Source of the DNA: a virus
Reading direction: 5' to 3' (one strand)
DNA: 37,201 nucleotides
Virus record (IMG/VR): IMGVR_UViG_3300021599_000956
Span: 1-37,201 of that record
Both the position numbers and the translations under genes were made by a program. The notes under the pieces were generated by a model, which was not told where the DNA came from, made no database searches, and worked only from the letters and a program-made list of their open reading frames with translations. This document shows positions 3,749-37,046 of the stretch, in pieces (position 1 is the stretch's first letter; every line of letters begins with the position of its first letter).

Positions 3749-6700
3749 ATGCAACTAGACAAACACATACAAGCTGGGGGTCTGAATACAGACGATACGG
3801 ATTACCTATTCCCAAAGGGTGATGCTGAGAATCGCATCAATGCCCGTGTGGTTGATATAGGATCTGGCGATGGTGGTGCTATTGTAAATTCTCCAGGTAA
3901 CGCACTCGTTACATCTAGCGAGTATAATGTTAGTGGAGCTGATACTGTTATTGGTACGATAGAAGATTCAGAAGAAAGAAGAGTATTCTTTTTTGTACAT
4001 AACAGTGGCGGTGCCCATAAGATTCTTTGCTATAAGTATGATAACAATTCTGTTGTTCGTGTTCTTGCTCAAGAAAATTTCGCGTCTAATCAGAAAGGAT
4101 TAAACTTTCAAAAAGACTATCGAGTAAATGGAGTAGCCATGTCTGGCTCTCTGTTGTATTTTACGGACAACTATAATGAGCCTCGCAGAATAAATGTGGA
4201 TGAGCTTATACCGAAGGTCAGCGGAACTGGCAGGGTAAACAATATGAAGGATTCTCAGATAACTCTGATTAGACCTCAGCCTGGCCTGCCGCCAACCGTA
4301 AGCAAGTTCAAGGATGTTTCTGTAGTCGGCCAGTTTTTGGATAACGATGCTTTTCAGTTTACATATAGATATGTATACTACAATAAGGAAGAGTCGGCTC
4401 TTGGCCCACTATCGGTTATTGTAGCACCAAACACCAGAAAAGAAATTGAGGATGGGTTTAATGCTATACAGGTTACAATACCAGCATTAGAGATCCCGTA
4501 CTTCAACTATACAGCAACAGGGGCTGTTAACCTCTATGATGTAGAGAAGGTTCAGGTTGTAGCAAAGAGCTTGGTAACAAACAAGCATGAGATTGTAAAG
4601 ACATTTGACAGAGAGAACGATGCTTCTATATTCAATAGCAATGCATTTACTTTTGTCTTCTATAATAATACTGCTGGGATTGCACTTGCAGATAGTACTG
4701 CTGTAAAACAGTTTGATAATGTCCCAACTAAAAGCAAGGCCCTTGAGGTTGCTCGCAATAGGCTATTCCTTGGAAACAATTCTATTGGGTATGACTCTCC
4801 AAAGGTAACAAGTCTTGCAGTGAGTCTTGGTCCTGAGTTGGCACCAGCGGCTACTATATCTAAGTACGTAAAAACAGATAGTGGATATCAGTTTGGGATT
4901 GTGTTTAGCGACTTCGCTGGAAGGAAATGTGGCGTTGTGACAAAGGATGCTTTGAGGGTTAACACAAAAAGGCGCAACAATAATTTTAGTAATGCTTCAG
5001 ATCATTTTATCTGGAGCGTATCTAACTCAAACGCAATAAACGAAATCCCATCATGGGCAACACACTATCATGTTGTTAGGACCCATAATTTAAGGACAAG
5101 ATATTTTATTCAAGGAAGAACTAGCAACATTGCTTATGTTTCTAAAGATGTAGATGGCAAATACACAAACCCAGTTACATCATATTCCTCAAACGCTTAC
5201 GCACTAAGAATTGACATAAGCGATATCTTTTCGTATGGTATTGGGTATACCTATAATAGCGGTGATCTTATAAAGTTATTTTGGTATAGCAATAATTTAG
5301 AGAAGTATACAGAGTGTAGAATAGAGTCTGTTATAGGACAGTACGTTTACGCTAGTATGTCAAAAGTTGGAGACGATCAAGGGGTAACCACTGGACAAAT
5401 TTATGCCTTTGAGATATATAGCCCATATGTGAAAAGAGACCAAGAGGTTTACTTTGAAGTTGGGGCAAGTTTTCTAATAGCAAACCCTGGTACACCGAAT
5501 CGAACATACGCTACAACTGGCGGCAGAATAGAAGGTGATGTTTGGGTTGCTCAACGATCGGTTATCCAGAACACCAATGAGATTAAGTTTGACGGTAATG
5601 TTGTTACTGGAACGCTGAATAACAACCCAAGTCCAGGAATCACAACTAGGATATTCGACTTAGAAGGTTGGGATAAACTATCAGGCGCAACAACAGCAAA
5701 ATTATACAAGAGAACAAATGCTGCTGGGTTAGAAACAGAAAGATTTATTGAAGTGTATCGTCCGATTGATGGTAACCATGGAATTAAATCTCTTACTGGA
5801 TTAGCCGTTAGTGTTGGTGATACGTTCTCTATGACTATTGAAGCTCGTGGGGTTTACAATACTAATTATAGTCATGTCTTTTCTTACGATGTAATTCTTG
5901 AAGCAAGTGATGCCACAACTTATACTCTGGTTACAGACAACCTGAGCGGTAATACAGCATTAACATGGAATGCAACTCCAGGTGCTAGAAACGAAGACGC
6001 GCTTGGATACCTTTATGAAAAACAAGGAAGGTCAAATAATTCTGCCGAATGGAGAACTCATACAATCAGATCACAAGGTGTCCCCAAATCTGGGATTATT
6101 CGCGTTTATATTAGGGGATGGCACAAAGTTAAAGACAACTGGTTTCAGAAAGAATTGCTTGCTGATACTGGTATGTACAGAAATATTAACATCCGTCTGG
6201 CAACATCTACCCCTCTTGACAAGTTCTCTGAGTTGATGAGTCCATCTGACACTTTGTGGCAGAATTGGTTTACAGATTGTGGGCGTGCGAACATTATAAT
6301 TGAAGGTGGTAAAACAGAAAAGCCAACATCAATTCTTTATAGCAATACAATCATTCAGGGTACAAAGATTAATGGACTTTCTAGTTTTGAAGCATTAAAT
6401 GAATCCATATTAGACAGTGATGCTGGTGCAATAAACAAACTTGTTTACACGGCAAAGGGTGATCAGTATGGGAATGTAATGCTGGCTATATGCGCAAATG
6501 ACGCAATGAGCCTATATCTTGGTGAGTCTAGAATTGTAGACAATGGCGGTGATGGTTTTCTGGCTGCTAGCCCAGGGGTTATTGGTACGGTGTACCCACT
6601 AAAGGGTGGTTATGGAACAGTGCATCCTGAAAGTGTTGTAGAGGTTTCTGGGAAAGTATACTGGTTTTGTATATATGCAGGATGTGTTGTTAGATATGAC

Positions 6701-11671: not shown

Positions 11672-14600
11672 ATGTCTCCAGAGATACTTAAAAATAGACA
11701 GTCCTTAGCTGCGCTCTTAGCAGCGAATGGTTATAGTGATGTGACCATCGATGTACTCAATAATAAGTTTAATGCTGATGAAGCTTATTCAGATAAACTA
11801 TGGAATACACTAATTAACGACAAGGATGTTAAATCAAAAGTAGCCGCCTTGGCTAAAAGTCCAGGTGACTTTAAGACATTCGTATACGGACAGCCTGCAC
11901 CTTCACAGGGCGGGCTAAAAAAAAATGAGGCTACTACTAGCCAACCTGCTACTCAAACTGTCGCAACTCCTCCTGTCGATTTCGGAAAGTATAAGACCTT
12001 AGACGCTTGGGGCGAAGCTTATAATAAAGCTCCAGGAAACGACATGATTCAAATTGGGAAAGATGGATTACCACTCCCAACAGGAAGAGAGTCAGCGCAG
12101 CAAAACGCTCAACAACTTAAAAATGTTGACTGGTCAAAAACTAGGATTGCCACAGAGGTTGATATGGAGGCAACACGAATGTTTAATGCTGGAAATTATG
12201 CAACATACAAGGAGGCATATGCAGCAGCGGAAAAACAAAATAAGGAATGGAAAGCTTCGCAGGCTAAAACAAATTCCCTATATGGATTGACAGGCAATGT
12301 CCCAGAATGGGGCGCAAGCGGTACTCCGCAAAAACAGACTGTAACACCAAAGCCTAAAGGTTTTAGTGATGCGCAAATTAAAACATACTCTTCGTCTAGG
12401 GATATACTGTTGTCTCAGTTTGAAAAAACAGATTTTTACAAGAAGACATTTGATGCAATACTTCCCCAATACGATAACCTTTCATATACAACTGGAACTG
12501 GGGAAAGGGCTATTGACAAATCCATGGTTAGGGATTGGTTGAAAACCTACTTAAAAAGTATTGGTTCTAAAATCAGTGCTGACGATGGTATTGGCGATTA
12601 TCTTCATAGTAAATTAACAGCAGGTCTTGAGGCTAAGGGGCTTGAAATAAGAGTAGAGACAAAAGCAAAAAATCTATACAAGGAGAAGTATGGAACCGAC
12701 ATGGAGGCCGATATCAAAGCTGACCAAAGTACACTCTTTGGCAACACTACAGCACCAGTAGTTACAGAGTTCCAAACAAAAGCTAAGACTCTATCAACAA
12801 ACACAAACACTTCTTTACAAAATACAACAGCACAATATGAAAAAGATGCTGAACAATTGGTAAAGAACTTTGAAGATCCAGTTTGGATTTCTGAAAATAT
12901 TGCGTTTCCACCTATTGGTATAGACCGAAACAAATATTATCAAGATGAGTTTGATAAGCGTAACAAAGCATTACATGCAGCATACGCTAAAAACCATTCT
13001 ACATTATCAGCTGATGCAAACAGGCAGCTTGCTATCCTGAAAAACAACTACACCGCAATGCTTGGGAAAAGGCAGGCTACATTAGAGAAGTCTAGCCTAA
13101 GTAAGGAAATACAATCCCGTCTAAATACCGTATATGCGGAGGCGGGAACATATGCGATGAATGATAGAGATATTAGAAGACAAACTGCGTTAAATAAGCA
13201 GGTTGGCGATATTCCCGTTTTAAGGCAGTTCAATATACTTTCTAGATCTATCGCAAGCGGTTCAGCGAATTTTCTTGCAAACGCTGCAACATGGGTAGAC
13301 CATAATTTAAAATATAAGTATAGTGCATATTTCAGGGACCAGTTTCAAGACTTAGCCCGTAACGCATCGCTTCCTCAGAACGCAATAAAAAGTTGGTCTG
13401 ACTTGCTGGATGTTGACAAATTGGTACAAAACATTGGAGAACAAAGTGTCCCAGTAGCCACATCAATCGCTGTATCTCTTGCTGTAAGAAGGCCCGTGAT
13501 GATTGGATTAACTGGTGCTGGCGTTACTGGAACTACAGCCACCGCCATTGGAACAGTATCTGGAGCAACCGCTGGCATGATTAGTGAGAATATCCAAAGG
13601 CAAGGTGAGGTAATTGCGAATTTGCAAGATCAAGGTGTTGATCCAAAAACTGCATTGGAAAGAAGTAAAACGGTTTGGAATAACCCAGTTAGAGATATCG
13701 CTCTTAACGCTTTACAGCTTGAGGCGTTATTTGGCAAATTGGCGGCAGGAAGTTTTGTTAGAAGGTTTTCCATAGGGGCAACAGGAGAGACGGCAACTGA
13801 GATACCTCAAGAAGTTTTTCAGACAAGAGAGGAAGAAAGAGCCATGGGTATCCCAGAAGGACAAGGGGCTACGGTAAAAGAGATTGCATTGAATGTATTG
13901 CCTACATCTATTTTGATGTCTGGTGGTTCGGCAGCATTGCAAGCACAAAAAAATAGTGAGCCGTTGCTTCCTACTTGGGTTTCAAGCGTTGCTAGTTACC
14001 CTATTAATAAACTCACAGAGCAAATAACCAATACAAACGCTAACCTGGTCAAGGCAGCAATTGAGTTGTCAGCTTTTAATGGGACAATTCAACCTGAGAA
14101 GATGGAAGAGCTTGGGCAAATTGTAGATAATGTACAAACGCATGTGCAGACAGCAAAGGAGGCTGGCTTAAATAAAAAGCAGCAGGTAGCTTATGTTTCA
14201 CTTGTGGCAAACGCAGAGAATATTTCAAACCAAATAACAGAAGCTAAGGCGAATGGTGCTACTACCGAACAAATTGCAAAGCTTGAACAATACCATACCA
14301 ATGCTTCTAACGCAGCTAAGAGTTTGCTTACTGAGAAGTCTGGGAACTATGCGGTTATTACACAAGAAGATGGTGATCAGGTTATAGTTTCTCACGAAGA
14401 TTTAAATACACTTTTAGATAACGAACAGTTTACAAGTGAAGTAAAATCTGGAAATACTAGCGTTGAGTTAAGGTCTAACAAGAAGGCTACATTTGATGTA
14501 TCATCATTACATAAAAAACTTTCGGCAGCAAATAAAAGGTTTGACCAAAAGGTTGCAGTGTATGAAAACGAAGCTAATGTAGCAAAGGCCCTTGATCAAA

Positions 14601-17600
14601 AGCTTGGCATCAACAGGAAGACTACGCCTCACCCAGACTCAAAGGTTGGAGGTATATTAGGCCAACAGGTAAGACTGCAAACACAGGTAGACGATATTAC
14701 TGGAGAGTTGCACGTTGATGGTCAGAGGCTAGTGATAGAAAATGAAAATACTATTAGAGATATCGGTAACATAAATGACCTAAGAGATTTGAAGCCAAAA
14801 GAGCTTGGCATTTCTTTGGTCCCATCACCAGAAACAGCTCCTGAATTTACACCTAAGACTGAAGAGGAAGTTAATATACCTGGAATGATATCATTGTTTG
14901 CTGGTAAAATGAATCCAGAAACATTGATAGATACCCTTAAAATGGTGGTGCCAGCAGTTGACAGAAACATACTGGCAGCTCAGGTGTATTCTTGGGATAA
15001 CGCTCACAGACAAACAAACAGAAGGGTAAATGAAGCTAGGCAGACAGATCAAGATAAGAGGTCACCATCAAAGATAGAGACACCTACTGCTGAGGTTGGT
15101 AAAGAGTATACTGGCAACGATGTTGCTGAGGTTATAGCAGAGGTTGGCGATAAAACAACTACTGGCGCTGTAAGCAAAATGACCCAGGCTATGGGGCAGA
15201 ATTTCGTTGGTCAGGAGGTTAACCTGGATGAGATGTATGAGAAGGACGAGGAGTTTGCTAGACGAGTTGAAGAAGAGCGTCAATCAAAAAAACCACAGGT
15301 TGATCAGTCTAAAAAAACATACAACAGTCCAGAGAATACCCCAGCAATTATGATTGGAGGTAGGGTTATTGACGGAATGGGTAGGCTTGCTCAAAGATAT
15401 TTGAATGGAGACAAAACGGCTAGTGCTTACGTTTCGACTGGGCCTTCGCAGCAACAAATGTCTGCAACCCCAGCACAAGCACAGACACAAGAACAAGCTC
15501 CAGCAAACATGAATGAGGTTATCGATCGTGTTTTTGCGGAGTCATTTGGTGTTGGTTCTAATAATGCTCAACCATTAATTAATCAAGCGAGAGCTGCCCA
15601 GGAAAGATTGCGTGAGGCAGGCGTGCAAGATGCAGAAGTGGTTGTACACGAGAATGAAGACGAATATGCAATGGCAGTAGGCCGTCTTGGTGGAGATCCA
15701 GAATCTGCTGGTAACGCAGCATTCAGAACAGTAGACGGCAAGCGACAGGTATATAGAATTGACATCAACGCATCTCGTGCAAACGAAAGAACGGTTGCTC
15801 ACGAGTTAGCCCATGCTGTTTTAATAAACGGGTTTGGTACTAACGAGCCACTCTTCCAGCAGTTCAGAGACCAGGTGATTAATGTACTGAAGTCATCCGA
15901 TGCTGAAGCTCTTAACAAGTTTGCCGATCAGTATGGTAGCGCTAACGCAGAGGAGTTCTTGGCTGAATTGGCTGGCGCTTTAAATGCTGGACAAGTTGAT
16001 ACAACGGTCTTGTCAAGGGTAGCTCAGATTATCAATAATATTATAAGCAGAATTACTGGCGGTAAGTTTATCCCATTCCAAGATATACAAAATGCGAATG
16101 AGATAATTAACATGTTGAGGGCACTCAACCCTACAATGGGATTCCAGACTATATCAGGGGAAGAGTCTGGCACTCGCGCACAGGGAGTATCCTTGTCAAG
16201 AGGAACCGAGACGCTGCGCAGGTTTGGTGTGAAGCCAGGTAAACCAGCAACAACAAGAGTTGTAGCTAAGGCTCTTGAAGAAAGACAGAGAGCAAAGTAT
16301 GGAACAATCTCTCCAGATGATAGATCAACTGAGGCGAAAAGAAAGATATCCAATTGGATGGTAGAAGAAGTAAAGTATTTCATGGGTCTAATGGGAGATC
16401 AAAGCGGCAAGGACTGGTACGGAGAGAAGTACCAAAAGGGCTTGAACGCTATGGCTCAAATATTCCCAGAGATGGCAACAGATCAAAGTGCGAGAGACTT
16501 ATTTACTATGCTGGTTGCAATTACTTCTGATGGACAAAAGGTTCTTACGAATTTTAAATTGGCCTCAATCGCATACCAGTACTATAGAACAACTGGAGAG
16601 TTGCCTTCAACCTTACCTGGACAAAGAAACTTTGACTCTAACTTGGCTAGAATAAACGCTTTATTAAATGAGTTTAATGGAGATGTTCAGAAAGCAAAAA
16701 CAAAATTGCTTGAGGTAGATTCTATTAAGAACATAAATGCTAAAAGAAAAGACGGTGGTTTGGAGCCAATAACTTCTAGCTGGCCTGTGGAGTTTGAGGC
16801 TCCATATGCAGCAGCTGAGTTTGGTCCTAAGCTTGGTATGTTTTACGCAAACCTAAGCGGGCAGGAAAACTATCCCACACTTGATAGGTGGTGGTCTCGT
16901 ACATTCAATAGATATAGGGGGGCACTTCTTCAAGATGTTAAAAAAGGATTCAATACAAAGGGTGAACCAATTGGTCTTGATAGATTGAAAGCAATGCTTG
17001 GAGATCCAGCAATGACTGATGAGCAAGCTTTGTATGAGGCAAGGAATCTAAGAGATTCTTATGCTGATAAAGGATATAAGAATGGTACAGATTTAGAGAA
17101 GGCTGGCAACACTACATATAAGAATGCATTTGAAAACCTAAACGATGCTCCTTTCAACAAGAAGGACAGACAGTTTATGTACGATGCAGTTGTGTCTGCT
17201 GTGAAGAAACTTAATAATAGTGGGAACAGTCTTACGATAGCCGATGTCCAGGCAATTCTTTGGTACTTCGAAAAGAACCTTTATAAGACTCTTGGAGTAC
17301 GGGCTAATATTACTGGTATCAGTTATGAAGAAGCTGCTGACATTACATTTGAAAGATGGAAAAGTGCAAACGGATCTTTTGGTTATGATATAAATCCTAG
17401 TGAAGATGTGTCTGCGGTAGAAGATGCTGATGAGGATATTGAAGAAGAGTCTGGTTCTAGATCTCAGGTGGTGCCTACTATGATGGTATCTCCAAACGAA
17501 TTAGAAGGAACTCAGTTTGATAACTCTTTAGCCATGCTTGGCACACCAGAAATGGATAAGGTAGTCAAAGCTGTTTCGGCAGTAGACAAACTTCTTGGGT

Positions 17601-20600
17601 TAAGTGCAAGTAGTATTGACCAGGCGGTGGGCGTATGGACAGATGGAGCAGAGCAGTCAACGATCTCTAAATACGAGAACGATGTAAGCTTTGAAACCTT
17701 ACGGGCAGCGGCTGCTGTTAAGGGATTACTCTTGAATCAGAAGTCAGTACTGGCTTTCAAACCAGACGCAACCATACCAGACCTCAGAAACATTCAAATG
17801 GGTGGAATCCCGTCAGGGTTTGGTATTCTATATCAGGCACCAGTAAATATGGATGCAAAGGCTGTTACAGATTTGTTAACAAGCAGTGGTATTGAATACA
17901 AAACTGTGGTTCCTGTTGGAAATTCGGACGCTATGGTCTACCTTTACACAGATGAGGCTGAGAACATTGTTAAGTTCAACCAATTTTTTGACCAAAATCA
18001 GATACAATATGAATACAACTACGGACAAGGAGAATTTGTTGGAACCTGGGGAGAACGAGAAGAAGCCTATGGAATCTACGACAGAGTCATTGAAGGGGCT
18101 GTCGCTAGCGGAAGTATTCGCGAAGAGTCCATACGGGACCTACGGAAACGCGAAGATGAAACCATTGGTGATTACAGGAGCCGCGCAGCCAAAACCATCT
18201 CAGAGCGAACAGGAGAAGAAGTAGAATTCGGATCTCGCTCTCAGAAGTATAGCATAGACGGCACATACAATTTTATATCTGGGCTAAAATCAGCTGGCCT
18301 ATCAGAACAGCAAATACAAAAAGCATTAGTGGACAAGCTGGGATTATCACCTAGCGCGGCTCAAAGTTTAATGTCATCTCAGGCTACGCAGCCTACAAGC
18401 GTAGCGAAATCAAATAACGACTTAGTAAGAGAGGCCTTATCTAACATCCAGTCTGGGATGCCTGAACAGGATGTAAAGAACGCAATCTCTTCTCAGGTTC
18501 AAGATCCTAATCTTATTGATCAATTGTACAGCATTGCCGCAAAGCTTAATGTGCAACCAAGTACAGACAACACTCTTTCAAAAACAAAAATCGATAACGC
18601 ACTTAGGGTACCAGAAAAAAATAAGCCTGGCTTTTTCAGCAGAGCATGGGATTGGATTAGTAATCTTAGTAAACATCTGGATAATCCGAACAGGTATATC
18701 ACTAGACTACAAGAGCAAGTTGAGAAAGAGTATGGTGTAAGCACTGGCCGTATCCCACTTGGCAGAATATTTGAAAAGAATGCCACAGGAAGAGCAGTGT
18801 CAAAGGTGCAAGACTTCTTGAAATCTGTTGTAGGAGGTTTGTCTAAGACAGATATTGCGAACCTGGAGAAATATATTTTTGTCAAAAGAATAATCGACAG
18901 AAATCAGCAGGACATTATTAACGCTTCACTGGCACCAGATGCAGCTCCAAGGACTACTGGCAACATTACATTGCAGGATGCTGTGAATGTTATGGATCAG
19001 ATGAAGTCTGACCTAGGAGCAGATGTGATTGCCGACTTTGAAAGAAGGTCATCAGAGTTCCAAAGAATTGCAGACGAGAATCTACAGCTTTTAGTAGCCA
19101 GTGGAATAATTTCTGAAGAGGTTTATAGGAATATAAAAAACCAAAATGATTTCTATGCGCCATTCAATGTAACGCAGACACTCGTTGGAAATGGTAGAGA
19201 CAAAAGCAGCGCTCCACTGGTTGCGAACTCTGTTGTAAAAAAGATACAGGGTATTTCGCAGAAGAATGGAGAGTATACAATTGACGATATCAATACGCTC
19301 CAAGACGCAATGAATAATGGAACCATTACAAAAGACGAGTTCTATGAGTCTGCTAACAATGTATTGGATAATATGTTAGCCAATGGTGTAATAACAGATG
19401 AAGAGCATTCTATAGAGCTAGGTAAGTTGAGTGATAGCGGCTTTTCAATCAGCAACATCATAGATAGGATGGCTGCTATTGTTTATGATTCTGTAGTAAT
19501 TGCGAATAAAAATGATATGATGTTGAGGCTTGATGCCTTAGCGGACATAGATACTGACGGGCTGTTTGTTAGACGCGTTCAAGGAGCGAATGCTCTTTCT
19601 CTTGCAAGTGTTAAGACAGAAGAAGGTTTCGCCCCAGTAAGCTATAAGAAGAATGGAGCCGTTCAGTTCCTGGCGATTGACGAGAAGGCTGCCAATACAA
19701 TAAATGGTTTAGACAAGAAGGAGCTTTCTGCATGGGGTAAAGGTGTAAACTTTATAAACTCTGCATTCAGGACGGCTATTATTACCTTGAGTCCCTCTTT
19801 CCAGGTGGCAAACTTTGTTATTGACTTCTTTAGAAATGCAGCATTCAATAAGTATGGATTATTTGCAGGCAAAAATATTGGAGACCGTATGGCTAATGTG
19901 GTTCTTTATGTGCCGCAGTATATTGAGGCCTTGGTTACAAGTGCGGCAGGTAACTTGGGAGCTAAGAATGAACTATGGGATAACTTTATGAAGAGCGATT
20001 CCTTCTCTCAAGGGCTATATGATGATCCATTCACCGATGCAGGAGGACAAAGAAGTTTGTCACTAAGAACTGCTTCTGGTTTTAGTAAAGCTAAAAATAG
20101 CGTGTCGAAGATTATTAACTACATAGGAACTGTAGCAGAGCAAAGCCACAAAATTGTATCTATCCAAAGAGGTATGGATACAGAGGCTGGCATCAGGCTT
20201 GGAATAAGCAGACTAAAAAATATTATTACAGATGCCAAAACCCCTGAACAACTTGCTGACGCTATAGACAGGGTAGCCTACGAGACTCAGAACTTAGCTG
20301 GTTCTCCAAACTTTGCGGCAACAAGCTCAACCATGAAGAGCCTTAGTGTAGTATTTCAGTTCATCAGTGCCAGAGTTAAGGGTGAGATGACTGACTGGAG
20401 AAGGCTTTCGAATACTTTTACTGGAACTGGGGAAGGCGTTAAGATGACCAAAGCTGAGAGGGCGCAAATGATGGCGCAGATCGGATCGTTGTTCTCTTTT
20501 ATTACACTTGCTGCTATTGGAAACCACGAGGATGATGATGAAGAAAAAGGCTTCTACTCAATGGGTGCCTATGATAGAGACAATAACATTAACATCCCAA

Positions 20601-21175
20601 TGGGTAAGTTTACTCTTGATGGGAAAGAGTATACTGAGTATGTAAAAATACCTGTGCGTGGTATCCCTCAGAACATCAATGTAATATCAAACGCCTACCT
20701 AAAGTGGAGAAAGGGGCAAGACCCCGATGCCTTAAAGAATGGACTATTGAAAGCTATGGGATCTTCTTCACCACTGACAATTAGTGGAGATAACCCTCAA
20801 GAAATTATGGAGTCTGGCTTAGGGAATACAACTCCTGTGTTCAAATTTTATTTGGAGAAAGCAACTAATAGAGATTTCTTTATGCATAGGGATTTAATAC
20901 CTGAGCGATATGGGGTCCATAAGGTTAAAGACTATCTTGAAGAGGGAATATTGAGACCAGATCATCAGATATTCAGCAGAAAGAAAACCCCAGACTGGGC
21001 AAAGAAAATGTCAACATGGTTGAAAGATGACTGGGATATTTCTGTAACTCCTATTGCGCTTGATCATTTTGAGAATACATTCTTTGGTAACATCACTGAT
21101 GTATTCAAGAAAAATCCAATACAGCGGAGGTTTACTAGAAGTGGAAGTACAAATCCTGTATGGAAAGACAGATAG
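11672..21175 (+). CDS. Giant polyvalent virion protein with zincin metalloprotease and LPD38-like regions
   Basis: This 3167-aa protein is one uninterrupted 9.5-kb frame. Visible regions: helical N-terminus (1-90); a Gly/Ala/Val-rich hydrophobic stretch at about 590-645 that could enter membrane; long coiled helices (650-1080); a zinc-protease motif HELAHA (His1377, Glu1378, His1381) with a downstream EEFLAE (Glu1427/1428) as possible third ligand; a conserved-looking helical domain at about 1555-1890 with DRWWSRTFNRYRG; and a region from about 2315 to 2960, including TLSPSFQVANFVIDFF (around 2705), resembling large polyvalent protein associated domain 38 (LPD38). Proteins of this class are packaged in virions and ejected to act early in the new host. 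No RNA polymerase DFDGD motif is present. Each activity is inferred and untested. Confidence 0.65.
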   Translation: MSPEILKNRQSLAALLAANGYSDVTIDVLNNKFNADEAYSDKLWNTLINDKDVKSKVAALAKSPGDFKTFVYGQPAPSQGGLKKNEATTSQPATQTVATPPVDFGKYKTLDAWGEAYNKAPGNDMIQIGKDGLPLPTGRESAQQNAQQLKNVDWSKTRIATEVDMEATRMFNAGNYATYKEAYAAAEKQNKEWKASQAKTNSLYGLTGNVPEWGASGTPQKQTVTPKPKGFSDAQIKTYSSSRDILLSQFEKTDFYKKTFDAILPQYDNLSYTTGTGERAIDKSMVRDWLKTYLKSIGSKISADDGIGDYLHSKLTAGLEAKGLEIRVETKAKNLYKEKYGTDMEADIKADQSTLFGNTTAPVVTEFQTKAKTLSTNTNTSLQNTTAQYEKDAEQLVKNFEDPVWISENIAFPPIGIDRNKYYQDEFDKRNKALHAAYAKNHSTLSADANRQLAILKNNYTAMLGKRQATLEKSSLSKEIQSRLNTVYAEAGTYAMNDRDIRRQTALNKQVGDIPVLRQFNILSRSIASGSANFLANAATWVDHNLKYKYSAYFRDQFQDLARNASLPQNAIKSWSDLLDVDKLVQNIGEQSVPVATSIAVSLAVRRPVMIGLTGAGVTGTTATAIGTVSGATAGMISENIQRQGEVIANLQDQGVDPKTALERSKTVWNNPVRDIALNALQLEALFGKLAAGSFVRRFSIGATGETATEIPQEVFQTREEERAMGIPEGQGATVKEIALNVLPTSILMSGGSAALQAQKNSEPLLPTWVSSVASYPINKLTEQITNTNANLVKAAIELSAFNGTIQPEKMEELGQIVDNVQTHVQTAKEAGLNKKQQVAYVSLVANAENISNQITEAKANGATTEQIAKLEQYHTNASNAAKSLLTEKSGNYAVITQEDGDQVIVSHEDLNTLLDNEQFTSEVKSGNTSVELRSNKKATFDVSSLHKKLSAANKRFDQKVAVYENEANVAKALDQKLGINRKTTPHPDSKVGGILGQQVRLQTQVDDITGELHVDGQRLVIENENTIRDIGNINDLRDLKPKELGISLVPSPETAPEFTPKTEEEVNIPGMISLFAGKMNPETLIDTLKMVVPAVDRNILAAQVYSWDNAHRQTNRRVNEARQTDQDKRSPSKIETPTAEVGKEYTGNDVAEVIAEVGDKTTTGAVSKMTQAMGQNFVGQEVNLDEMYEKDEEFARRVEEERQSKKPQVDQSKKTYNSPENTPAIMIGGRVIDGMGRLAQRYLNGDKTASAYVSTGPSQQQMSATPAQAQTQEQAPANMNEVIDRVFAESFGVGSNNAQPLINQARAAQERLREAGVQDAEVVVHENEDEYAMAVGRLGGDPESAGNAAFRTVDGKRQVYRIDINASRANERTVAHELAHAVLINGFGTNEPLFQQFRDQVINVLKSSDAEALNKFADQYGSANAEEFLAELAGALNAGQVDTTVLSRVAQIINNIISRITGGKFIPFQDIQNANEIINMLRALNPTMGFQTISGEESGTRAQGVSLSRGTETLRRFGVKPGKPATTRVVAKALEERQRAKYGTISPDDRSTEAKRKISNWMVEEVKYFMGLMGDQSGKDWYGEKYQKGLNAMAQIFPEMATDQSARDLFTMLVAITSDGQKVLTNFKLASIAYQYYRTTGELPSTLPGQRNFDSNLARINALLNEFNGDVQKAKTKLLEVDSIKNINAKRKDGGLEPITSSWPVEFEAPYAAAEFGPKLGMFYANLSGQENYPTLDRWWSRTFNRYRGALLQDVKKGFNTKGEPIGLDRLKAMLGDPAMTDEQALYEARNLRDSYADKGYKNGTDLEKAGNTTYKNAFENLNDAPFNKKDRQFMYDAVVSAVKKLNNSGNSLTIADVQAILWYFEKNLYKTLGVRANITGISYEEAADITFERWKSANGSFGYDINPSEDVSAVEDADEDIEEESGSRSQVVPTMMVSPNELEGTQFDNSLAMLGTPEMDKVVKAVSAVDKLLGLSASSIDQAVGVWTDGAEQSTISKYENDVSFETLRAAAAVKGLLLNQKSVLAFKPDATIPDLRNIQMGGIPSGFGILYQAPVNMDAKAVTDLLTSSGIEYKTVVPVGNSDAMVYLYTDEAENIVKFNQFFDQNQIQYEYNYGQGEFVGTWGEREEAYGIYDRVIEGAVASGSIREESIRDLRKREDETIGDYRSRAAKTISERTGEEVEFGSRSQKYSIDGTYNFISGLKSAGLSEQQIQKALVDKLGLSPSAAQSLMSSQATQPTSVAKSNNDLVREALSNIQSGMPEQDVKNAISSQVQDPNLIDQLYSIAAKLNVQPSTDNTLSKTKIDNALRVPEKNKPGFFSRAWDWISNLSKHLDNPNRYITRLQEQVEKEYGVSTGRIPLGRIFEKNATGRAVSKVQDFLKSVVGGLSKTDIANLEKYIFVKRIIDRNQQDIINASLAPDAAPRTTGNITLQDAVNVMDQMKSDLGADVIADFERRSSEFQRIADENLQLLVASGIISEEVYRNIKNQNDFYAPFNVTQTLVGNGRDKSSAPLVANSVVKKIQGISQKNGEYTIDDINTLQDAMNNGTITKDEFYESANNVLDNMLANGVITDEEHSIELGKLSDSGFSISNIIDRMAAIVYDSVVIANKNDMMLRLDALADIDTDGLFVRRVQGANALSLASVKTEEGFAPVSYKKNGAVQFLAIDEKAANTINGLDKKELSAWGKGVNFINSAFRTAIITLSPSFQVANFVIDFFRNAAFNKYGLFAGKNIGDRMANVVLYVPQYIEALVTSAAGNLGAKNELWDNFMKSDSFSQGLYDDPFTDAGGQRSLSLRTASGFSKAKNSVSKIINYIGTVAEQSHKIVSIQRGMDTEAGIRLGISRLKNIITDAKTPEQLADAIDRVAYETQNLAGSPNFAATSSTMKSLSVVFQFISARVKGEMTDWRRLSNTFTGTGEGVKMTKAERAQMMAQIGSLFSFITLAAIGNHEDDDEEKGFYSMGAYDRDNNINIPMGKFTLDGKEYTEYVKIPVRGIPQNINVISNAYLKWRKGQDPDALKNGLLKAMGSSSPLTISGDNPQEIMESGLGNTTPVFKFYLEKATNRDFFMHRDLIPERYGVHKVKDYLEEGILRPDHQIFSRKKTPDWAKKMSTWLKDDWDISVTPIALDHFENTFFGNITDVFKKNPIQRRFTRSGSTNPVWKDR

Positions 21176-33415: not shown

Positions 33416-33699
33416 TACATGCGATTGTGTGTGCTTAAAATGTCCTCTATCTCTTCCTTCAATGAGGCGTAGAACTCAAGGGTTTTCTGAATCTCCTTGT
33501 CGCTTGGCCTTAACAAGCCAGCCGACTTCCTTGACAGAAGACTTCTTTGGTTTGTTTCCCCAGACCCATAAATATACTCGGCCACTGCTGCCCTCTTCAC
33601 CTCTGGTATATTTAGCAGAGCTATGAATTTCCATGGCTGCATGTCTTCCTTACGCGCCCTGAACTTGAAGGGTGCTTTTCGTTTTCTTTTTATTATCAT
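33415..33699 (-). CDS. Basic protein of unknown function (94 aa)
   Basis: This 94-aa protein starts with a strongly basic segment (MIIKRKRKAPFKFRARKED) followed by helices (PWKFIALLNIPEVKRAAVAE and KEIQKTLEFYASLKEEIEDI). Nucleic-acid binding is possible from charge. It overlaps the upstream DnaA-like gene by 50 bases and the next gene by one, so it is translationally coupled to both. The 50-base overlap is long, and an internal start is possible, but the best coding look is from 33699. Confidence 0.55.
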   Translation of the reverse strand: MIIKRKRKAPFKFRARKEDMQPWKFIALLNIPEVKRAAVAEYIYGSGETNQRSLLSRKSAGLLRPSDKEIQKTLEFYASLKEEIEDILSTHNRM

Positions 33700-34336
33700 A
33701 ACTCCAGTTTTTATTAGCGTCTATGTAATGAATAATTGTTGTGTGATCCTTCTTCAGGTGTTTACCCAATTGCACAAGCGTAGTCTTATAAAAACATAAA
33801 ACAGAAACAACTAGCAGTCTTCTTGCATGGTAAACTGCCGACTTCCTACTTCTGCTGATTATTTTTTTTGCTTCTACGTTCGTGTATTCAGAAACAATCT
33901 GAAGTGATTTATTAAAATAGTCCTCGTTTAGTATGGGCGAGACTGGAGAATTGTATGCCATAATCAACTCCCTGAAGTCATTCTTTTTCATTGAATTTGC
34001 AAGGATGTACTGATTGATTGTGTTTACATACTCAGCGTTAAAGATTGAAGGGGTTGGCCCACCAGACATCTCTGATGTGATCTTAGCATTTGTATGTCTA
34101 AGTACGGCTATCTCCTTCTTCAGATTCTTTACAACCGACCCCACTTCCAGATATGTTTCCCTCTTGCTTCTCTTGATTGCTATGGCGGGATCTGATGGAG
34201 TTAACGTATGATCTATTATGGTTTCCAGTTGTTTCGCGACATTCTGCTTTCTGCTTTCATCTACGCAAAACTTGTGCAATAGAGTCGCTATTAGGCTTTG
34301 CTTCCTTTGGTTGTAATTTCGGATGATAGTGTCCAT
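33650..34336 (-). CDS. DnaA domain IV-like DNA-binding protein
   Basis: The C-terminal 90 residues match DnaA domain IV: IVSEYTNVEAKKIISRSRKS, YHARRLLVVSVLCFYKTTLV and LGKHLKKDHTTIIHYID, with the DHTTIIH box of the DnaA signature (DHTTVxxA). No AAA+ ATPase domain precedes it; the N-terminal 120 residues are charged helices. I start at the ATG 34336 (MDTIIRNYNQRKQS) because the longer start at 34390 (MKTSTTGSSTS) runs far into the upstream gene. It probably binds origin-type sites, perhaps the nearby noncoding block or the DnaA box at 30445, as an initiator or as a rival of host DnaA. That role is inferred. Confidence 0.7.
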   Translation of the reverse strand: MDTIIRNYNQRKQSLIATLLHKFCVDESRKQNVAKQLETIIDHTLTPSDPAIAIKRSKRETYLEVGSVVKNLKKEIAVLRHTNAKITSEMSGGPTPSIFNAEYVNTINQYILANSMKKNDFRELIMAYNSPVSPILNEDYFNKSLQIVSEYTNVEAKKIISRSRKSAVYHARRLLVVSVLCFYKTTLVQLGKHLKKDHTTIIHYIDANKNWSYDNKKKTKSTLQVQGA

Positions 34337-34478
34337 ATGCTTTGTTGAGTTGATTGTTGATGTACTGGAACCAGTCGTTGATGTCTTCAAATCTGTCTTC
34401 TGGAATCAGCGTTGAAGAAACCTTGATACCTGGGGACGGCAGTATAACATCATTATGATGGTTGTTATTTTTATTCAT
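34257..34478 (-). CDS. Small acidic protein with DINDWFQYIN motif (73 aa)
   Basis: The 73-aa product reads as a short disordered Asn/His start followed by a conserved-looking helix (FEDINDWFQYINNQLNKAYG) and a charged end. I have a general memory of similar sequences in Bacteroidota phages, but name no family. It overlaps the start of the DnaA-like gene by about 80 bases, so one of the two starts may lie further in. It lies 2 bases after the upstream gene's stop. Confidence 0.5.
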   Translation of the reverse strand: MNKNNNHHNDVILPSPGIKVSSTLIPEDRFEDINDWFQYINNQLNKAYGHYHPKLQPKEAKPNSDSIAQVLRR

Positions 34479-36103: not shown

Positions 36104-36673
36104 TTATTTTAATGTTGATTGTAATTCTTCAATTGATAACCCAGCCTCTTCTACGAGCCACTGAGAAAATTTTTCAATGTCAGACTCTCGAATAATAACA
36201 TCAGAAGAGATGCTGAATACATTGCTTGTGAGACCAAATGCGAAGATCAACTCGTAGGGACACTCAAGTGTTCCATCCTGAATGTTCTCTACCAGATCGT
36301 TGAATCCATGTTTGTAGCTCACATCATCCCACCTACCAGTAGACCATCCAGATGCAAGGGTTGTGTATCCTTCGGCAATCACTACATCCCAGTATCCACG
36401 CCATCCGTCAGTACGCACATACTTGAAACCAGAAACGCCATTGGGGTCTGACTCCTCCCAATATTCAGCGTCCCTAAATCCAAACTCTTCACACCACCTG
36501 TACTTTTTTATTTCACCATGGTGTGATGTAATTACTGAGCATGAGTACTCCCATGCGTTCTGTTCACATGATTCGCAAATTGATTCTCCCTTTAGGTTAA
36601 TGGCGATGAAATCGTTTTCTCCGATCTCTTCGTTGCATGATGCACATGCATTGGTTGTGTTGTTAGTGTTCAT
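36104..36673 (-). CDS. Unknown acidic protein with N-terminal zinc finger (189 aa)
   Basis: I chose the ATG at 36673 (MNTNNTTNACASC) because it directly follows the structured intergenic element and gives an intact CxxC...CxxC zinc finger (CASCNEEIG and CESCEQN); the longer frame from 36850 is shadow sequence over the upstream gene. The rest is acidic and Trp-rich (YWEESDPNGVSGF, DGWRGYWDVV, GWSTGRWDDV) with a helical end. No family is recognised. The role is unknown; the finger suggests nucleic-acid or protein contact. Confidence 0.6.
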   Translation of the reverse strand: MNTNNTTNACASCNEEIGENDFIAINLKGESICESCEQNAWEYSCSVITSHHGEIKKYRWCEEFGFRDAEYWEESDPNGVSGFKYVRTDGWRGYWDVVIAEGYTTLASGWSTGRWDDVSYKHGFNDLVENIQDGTLECPYELIFAFGLTSNVFSISSDVIIRESDIEKFSQWLVEEAGLSIEELQSTLK

Positions 36674-36692
36674 TTTTTTGAGGTTTGATTCG

Positions 36693-36735
36693 GAACTGGG
36701 AGTGGAGTCGAACCACTCTGAGACCATCCCAGTTC
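36693..36735 (-). ncRNA. tRNA-like minihelix (acceptor stem + T-arm only)
   Basis: Read on the minus strand this 43-base element starts with GAACTGGG, then 10 bases, then a perfect T-arm AGTGG-TTCGACT-CCACT (36717-36701), directly followed by CCCAGTTC, which pairs with the first 8 bases. The T-loop region contains GGTTCGACTCC, the tRNA B-box consensus. D and anticodon arms are missing, so it is not a working tRNA. It lies in the 73-base gap between two genes, 11 bases after the stop of the upstream one. It may be a decayed tRNA or a folded mRNA element. Confidence 0.6.
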
Positions 36736-36746
36736 GTTGGTACTTA

Positions 36747-37046
36747 CTAATACTCATCAGGATCATAATCAGAAAAGCGTTCGCTACATGTAGTGACAGC
36801 CTTCCAATACTTTTCCTCTGGATCAATCTCGTATGGCCCCGCATCAGCATCGGGGTCTTCTGACAATATCACCAGAGATTGCAACCGAGAATTAGTTTCA
36901 GGATCGAAAAGGTCTTCGTAAATTGATACGCATGTCTGGATGTCTGAATCGTAATTAGTCCTGAAGTTGATTGTAATACCAGACAGGTCGTGGCCTTCTT
37001 TTTGCACTTGCAAAAGTTGTTCTAGCAGATTTTGTGCGGTTAACAT
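36747..37046 (-). CDS. Unknown acidic early protein (99 aa)
   Basis: The 99-aa protein is very acidic, with an N-terminal helix (AQNLLEQLLQVQKEGHDL) and a beta-rich middle (ITINFRTN, LQSLVILSEDPDADAGPYEI). It ends SDYDPDEY. Such small acidic proteins in early operons can mimic DNA or bind host factors, but this is only a thought from charge. The tRNA-like element follows its stop. It starts about 20 bases after the stop of the partial gene at the window edge. Confidence 0.55.
   Translation of the reverse strand: MLTAQNLLEQLLQVQKEGHDLSGITINFRTNYDSDIQTCVSIYEDLFDPETNSRLQSLVILSEDPDADAGPYEIDPEEKYWKAVTTCSERFSDYDPDEY

Follow-up and report, generated by a model that had tools for sequence, protein, structure and literature searches.

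A tRNA-like element between two small genes

The window, meaning the whole stretch of DNA analysed, is an IMG/VR virus record of 37,201 bases. On its minus strand, the sequence AACGAACTGGGATGGTCTCAGAGTGGTTCGACTCCACTCCCAGTTCCG is flanked by one gene of 99 aa (37046-36747) and another of 189 aa, the ATG of which (36673) lies 19 nt past the element. The features of the locus are as follows.

36747..37046, minus strand: upstream gene, 99 aa (ORF; identical in the sister contig L002)
36736..36746, minus strand: gap of 11 nt from the upstream stop codon to the element (alignment A2)
36693..36735, minus strand: tRNA-like element, class A (sequence; leave-out covariance model; covariation in 28 aligned elements)
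36735-36729 (GAACTGG) / 36699-36693 (CCAGTTC), minus strand: acceptor-like stem
36728-36719, minus strand: linker of 10 nt, GATGGTCTCA (in RNA letters GAUGGUCUCA), with AUGGU and a D-loop-like GG
36718-36713/36705-36700, minus strand: T-stem, GAGTGG/CCACTC
36712-36706, minus strand: T-loop, UUCGACU (TTCGACT in DNA)
36674..36692, minus strand: leader of 19 nt from the element to the AUG, CGAATCAAACCTCAAAAAA, with a C74-like first base at 36692
36107..36673, minus strand: downstream gene, 189 aa (ORF; stop codon 36104-36106)

The acceptor-like stem and the T-arm form an uninterrupted 13-bp stack, which may be divided into 7 + 6 bp or, as in the sequence-only reading, into 8 + 5 bp; both describe the same stack and the same 10-nt linker. 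That reading had likened the geometry to the top half of tRNA, and the acceptor/T-arm stack, the T-loop, and the GG-bearing linker bear out the comparison. The elements expected of tRNA, namely this stack, a T-loop of the form UUCRANY, and a D-loop GG, are all present, as judged by the invariant bases of alignment A2 and the covarying stems. No cloverleaf with an anticodon arm is formed, the 10-nt linker replacing both the D and the anticodon arms. ARAGORN detected no tRNA in the window, on which ground a complete or split tRNA was rejected, and Rfam returned zero matches there.

The location between two genes of a small-ORF cluster, as originally described, is confirmed by the ORF list. The 189-aa downstream protein has a relative in another contig (L004, 64% identical), and searches for it in Pfam, PHROG, and the phage collection returned no match. 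An integrase gene is present in the window about 4 kb from the element. The window also encodes a protein with a DnaA C-terminal domain (33653-34390) and a 3167-aa ORF (11672-21175), the first 943 aa of which are unmatched in the phage collection.

When the window copy was folded alone, an alternative pairing was favored over the tRNA-like fold (-18.7 versus -15.8 kcal/mol). Because this alternative minimum is better by about 3 kcal/mol, one sequence alone is insufficient to decide the structure; most relatives have the tRNA-like fold as their minimum or near-minimum. The window contains a single match to the T-arm pattern, with 0.04 expected. A covariance model (R2) built from 26 relatives, with the window phage and its sister left out, scored the window copy at 78.4 bits (E = 1.5e-17), and the runner-up in the window reached 12.7 bits. 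Sequence and leave-out model thus agree that the minus-strand element at 36735-36693 exists as described, and we consider its reality to be settled by comparative sequence evidence.

A repeated family with covarying stems

The view of the element as a single curiosity did not survive the comparison with related phages, in which a multi-copy family was found. The window element belongs to a repeated RNA family with strong conservation. The near-identical sister contig L002 (IMGVR_UViG_3300005527_000434), which reaches ~3.3 kb past the right end of the window, contains three more elements ahead of three more genes, at 593, 2028, and 3099. A G+C-richer region of ~400 bases with no obvious ORF (L002:250-650) precedes the first gene of this cluster and ends in a tRNA-like element; further RNA structures are possible within it. 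L004 carries an element with a D-like hairpin ahead of another gene.

A sequence-only scan with the outer stem and CTCATC matched 65 stretches of viral DNA. Among the distinct matches, 28 were alike and had an A-rich trailer, whereas 32 lacked the trailer and resembled chance coding matches. An arm of 5 bp or more directly adjoining the acceptor was present in 23 of the 28 matches with the trailer (2.4 by shuffling) and in 1 of the 32 chance-like matches; the inner part of the 28 lay outside the search pattern. A second scan, in which the acceptor was left free, yielded further contigs, and 16 of these records were taken on. The class-A model, representing the type found in the window, matched 12 of the 16, several of them weakly. 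Across the family, records carry one to eight class-A matches each, mostly clustered. The class-B model gave 87 matches in 20 regions, all 87 on one strand per record. Diverged as well as near-identical phage contigs carry many copies.

Alignment A2 contains 28 class-A elements without gaps. Base pairs were formed in 98.4% of cells, a percentage inflated by the gathering descriptor, which demanded most of the pairs; the test on the sequence-only set is free of this bias. Both sides change in 12 of the 13 pairs, the covariation score is 0.734 compared with 0.14 for shuffled alignments and at most 0.18 for slid partners, and RNAalifold returned the same fold unaided. One linker G and the G-UUCGA and U-C of the T-loop are invariant. 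Class B has a 3-bp D-like hairpin with loops such as AGCGAUA or UUCGUUA; 97% of its cells are paired, double changes occur in 10 of 16 pairs, and its covariation score was unmatched by any shuffle. The covariation of both stems that the sequence-only reading had proposed as a check is therefore found in both classes. A chance hairpin was rejected on the covariation, the sequence-only-set test, and the leave-out model. Further subclasses carry different D-side hairpins. The tRNA elbow is kept in several subclasses and the anticodon arm in none of those recognized; by visual inspection, a D-side G in each subclass examined could contact C56 of the T-loop.

The stems are nearly devoid of G-U pairs, with 1 of 364 cells in class A and 1 of 304 in class B (alignments A2 and A4), compared with about 8% in the acceptor and T stems of host tRNAs (43 readings, some duplicated, from a sampled Bacteroidota genome). 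This scarcity is odd for a plain RNA helix. The gap on the 5' side of the element reads CCCCC in most relatives and CCAAC in the window; this conserved flank has no counterpart at the 5' ends of host tRNAs in the sampled genome. On the 3' side, the first unpaired base is C in 52 of 55 elements, and the 13-bp stack includes the -1:73 pair. The tRNA genes of the sampled Bacteroidota genome end in N73-C, with C74 encoded and CCA absent, and the stack followed by N73-C in the elements matches these ends.

Rfam 15 contains no family reaching its cut-off for the window element or those of its relatives, including yjdF, tmRNA, hammerhead, and twister; the best score was about 14 bits, for the tmRNA 3' end on two elements (gathering score, 47 bits). 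No description of such elements was found in the open-licence literature, and BLAST of an element against phages gave weak short matches only. The class-A model had no match in 296 Bacteroidota genomes under stricter filters and with no positive control, and models R1 and R3 found nothing significant in three cultured phages of Bacteroidota type (Phage vB_RanS_PJN03, Tenacibaculum phage JQ, and Cellulophaga phage phi10:1), so no laboratory system is yet at hand. A scan of genome contigs gave one convincing match, on a MAG contig (L077, 5.3 kb, filed under Streptomycetaceae); the remaining matches resemble chance matches in coding sequence.

Arrangement in the gene clusters

A structure-only search identified 61 distinct elements. 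An ORF of at least 30 aa begins 18-20 nt after 48 of them (mode, 19), compared with 2.2% of random positions, and the previous stop codon typically lies 5-9 nt ahead of the element (mode, 6). The typical layout therefore has about 6 nt from stop codon to element and 19 nt from element to AUG, with tRNA-like units placed between co-oriented genes and close to both stop and start, as expected of a punctuated operon. Among 113 gene starts in 12 clusters, by simple ORF calling, 59 follow an element, 35 lie at most 35 nt from the previous stop, and 19 do neither.

The leader between element and AUG is nearly G-free and A/C-rich, with A at -12 in all 52 aligned leaders. In Flavobacterium, adenines at -3, -6, and -12/-13 favor initiation, and a zone of low structure extends from about -20 to +20 (PMC6847099). 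The leader spacing, set against this zone, suggests that a Bacteroidota ribosome would tolerate the element no nearer to the start codon than it sits. Relatives of the primase occur in Bacteroidota phages; judging from the leader and these relatives, the hosts of these uncultured phages are probably Bacteroidota.

Other RNAs occupy equivalent positions in the same clusters. Type III hammerheads were recognized in seven of them (31-45 bits, under the curated cut-off, E down to 1e-6) and type-P1 twisters in two; complete tRNAs occur as well.

L114:3976-4032, L112:4076-4132, L119:7645-7701, L121:7421-7477: type III hammerheads (Rfam)
L122:7968-8025, L124:6893-6948, L110:9388-9441: further type III hammerheads (Rfam)
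L116:5451-5512, L111:7085-7149: type-P1 twisters upstream of a start codon (Rfam)
L114:8431-8509: complete tRNA with CUA anticodon, 15 nt ahead of an ATG (ARAGORN, Pyl)
L119:4174-4245, L119:9412-9504, L111:4710-4782: phage tRNAs Trp, Gly, and Trp, respectively (ARAGORN)

Six of the seven hammerheads directly precede a start codon, at 9-13 nt. If they cleave, stem III opens and the distance from GAAAC to AUG would be 19-23 nt in these six and 63 nt in the seventh, so that the post-cleavage leader of the six would be near the 19 nt that follow the mimics. The CUA tRNA is a possible amber suppressor. The first L119 tRNA (4174-4245) lies 13 nt ahead of an ATG, and the tRNAs of L119 and L111 have encoded 3' ends of N73-C without CCA. 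The complete tRNAs before an ATG (L114 and L119) are followed by a C-T-A-A trailer resembling that of some mimics.

Candidate functions of the element

We favor, at slightly less than even confidence, the interpretation that the elements are intercistronic tRNA mimics that punctuate the polycistronic mRNA of the phage gene cluster. It is favored because ribozymes and a few complete tRNAs lie directly before start codons in the same clusters. The features recognized by host RNase P would be the elbow, the stack of 12-13 bp, and a 3' side resembling N73-C74, and cleavage would fall at the element's 5' base, directly after the upstream stop codon. The next message would then start with the mimic as a compact structured 5' end, followed by the G-poor, A/C-rich leader of ~19 nt, which would serve as the single-stranded zone needed by a Bacteroidota ribosome. 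RNase Z might add another cut, on the 3' side, and the hammerheads and twisters may do the same job through self-cleavage. Processing by tRNA enzymes is plausible from the sequences, in which the features of an RNase P substrate are present (a 12-bp acceptor/T stack, an elbow, G at the 5' base, and C74 on the 3' side). Known targets of RNase P include the phage C4 antisense and M3 RNAs, T4 gene 32 mRNA, the his operon mRNA, polycistronic mRNA, and minimal acceptor/T-arm helices (PMC11143913). As CCA is absent, cleavage of the elements may be weak. The conserved CCCCC flank, the near absence of G-U pairs, and the differing minimum fold of the window copy count against punctuation, as does the fixed spacing to the AUG, which a direct role at the ribosome would also predict.

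Such a direct role is the strongest rival, unlikely as we judge it to be: an uncut tRNA-like leader would dock on the ribosome near the 30S mRNA exit, for example at the E site or L1 stalk, and recruit it in hosts where initiation does without Shine-Dalgarno pairing. Activation of translation would explain the constant 18-20 nt to the AUG and the invariant A at -12, a position in the zone favoring initiation in Flavobacterium (PMC6847099). In the case of yjdF, translation is raised both by the tRNA-like leaders and by authentic tRNAs set ahead of the ribosome site, by 2-6.3 fold for cis-tRNAs, and mutation of the elbow at G19/G20 lowers it to near background (PMC9142559). However, this explanation leaves unaccounted for both the ribozymes in equivalent positions and the C74 after the stack, and the same spacing would be expected if a structure of whatever kind were crowded up to the edge of the unstructured zone from -20 to +20. 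Punctuation and activation could both be true. It is possible, and we propose it only tentatively, that the small-gene operons of these phages use interchangeable RNA modules, namely mimics lacking an anticodon, now and then a complete tRNA, and ribozymes of the hammerhead or twister type, whose double task would be to cleave the transcript and to offer the next AUG to non-Shine-Dalgarno ribosomes. If true, this would combine punctuation of the mitochondrial type with a tRNA-mimic translation leader in a bacterial virus.

A different stabilizing, regulatory, or ligand- or protein-binding leader, such as a 5' cap against RNases formed without RNase P, a riboswitch, or an autoregulatory site, is improbable. 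Structured 5' ends do protect mRNA, and several subclasses with differing D-side hairpins coexist within one genome; however, a generic role is suggested by the number of copies in each genome and their placement ahead of unrelated small genes, and no Rfam riboswitch matched.

A function at the DNA level, as an operator, promoter repeat, recombination site, or attP tRNA remnant, appears very improbable. The paucity of G-U pairs and the integrase gene would suit it, and in haloviruses there are promoters within intergenic repeats as well as a tRNA-like attP (PMC8707807). Nevertheless, the T-loop, the linker GG, and the orientation with the gene strand are kept while the stems covary, the class-B matches share one strand per record, each genome holds many different copies, and the Bacteroidota genomes searched gave no class-A match. 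An attP tRNA remnant in particular was rejected, as the elements are multi-copy with different stems and the one integrase lies about 4 kb away.

A decayed tRNA, a decoy, or a chance hairpin is hardly credible in view of the leave-out E value. The sequence-only reading had held that a full tRNA at this place in a relative would mark the element as a decayed tRNA. Complete tRNAs do stand before some start codons in a few relatives, but the anticodon-less elements form covarying multi-copy families of their own, which argues against decay, and the decoy suggested in that reading is disfavored, as there is no anticodon for anticodon nucleases to attack.

In mitochondria, polycistronic transcripts are punctuated by tRNAs that RNase P and RNase Z excise. 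The phage units are likewise tRNA-shaped, lie between protein genes on one strand, and are presumed cutting points; unlike the mitochondrial ones, most are not tRNAs, having neither an anticodon arm nor an aminoacylation end, and in phage mRNA the cutting is a prediction. They resemble the yjdF riboswitch and cis-tRNA leaders in their tRNA-like fold, the elbow contact between GG and T-loop, and their place just upstream of a start codon, whereas yjdF has a four-helix junction, a ligand site, and Shine-Dalgarno control (PMC9142559), and the phage elements are 41-48 nt, have no known ligand and no Rfam match, and are repeated between many genes. As in the non-tRNA substrates of RNase P, the acceptor/T-arm helix is the minimal recognized module (PMC11143913), although those substrates are single cases and the phage elements a conserved intercistronic repeat family. 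In haloviruses HF1 and HF2, the first ORF of an early operon has a cleaving RNA some 13 nt ahead of its start codon (PMC3088659); this RNA is a self-cleaving hammerhead ribozyme at a single site, whereas the mimics precede many internal gene starts. The tRNA-like domain of tmRNA also combines acceptor and T-arm with a reduced D side, but the phage elements lack a tag reading frame and CCA.

If this interpretation is correct, the elements would constitute a widespread RNA family not represented in Rfam 15, and tRNA mimicry would be routine grammar of phage operons. They offer a concrete means of studying how tightly packed genes are expressed by phages whose hosts lack Shine-Dalgarno initiation, and they bear on the reach of RNase P action on mRNA. 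An exact cut at the element base and dependence on the elbow are the predictions, both of them easily tested.

An intrinsic terminator was also considered for the element and rejected, as the hairpin is followed by a C/A-rich leader with no U run. Terminator-like hairpins were observed elsewhere, in intergenic regions of L122, L111, and L124; these start with CCCCCGAAC or CCCCGAGC, end in GGGG and a T-rich stretch, and have 5' sequence in common with the tRNA-like elements.
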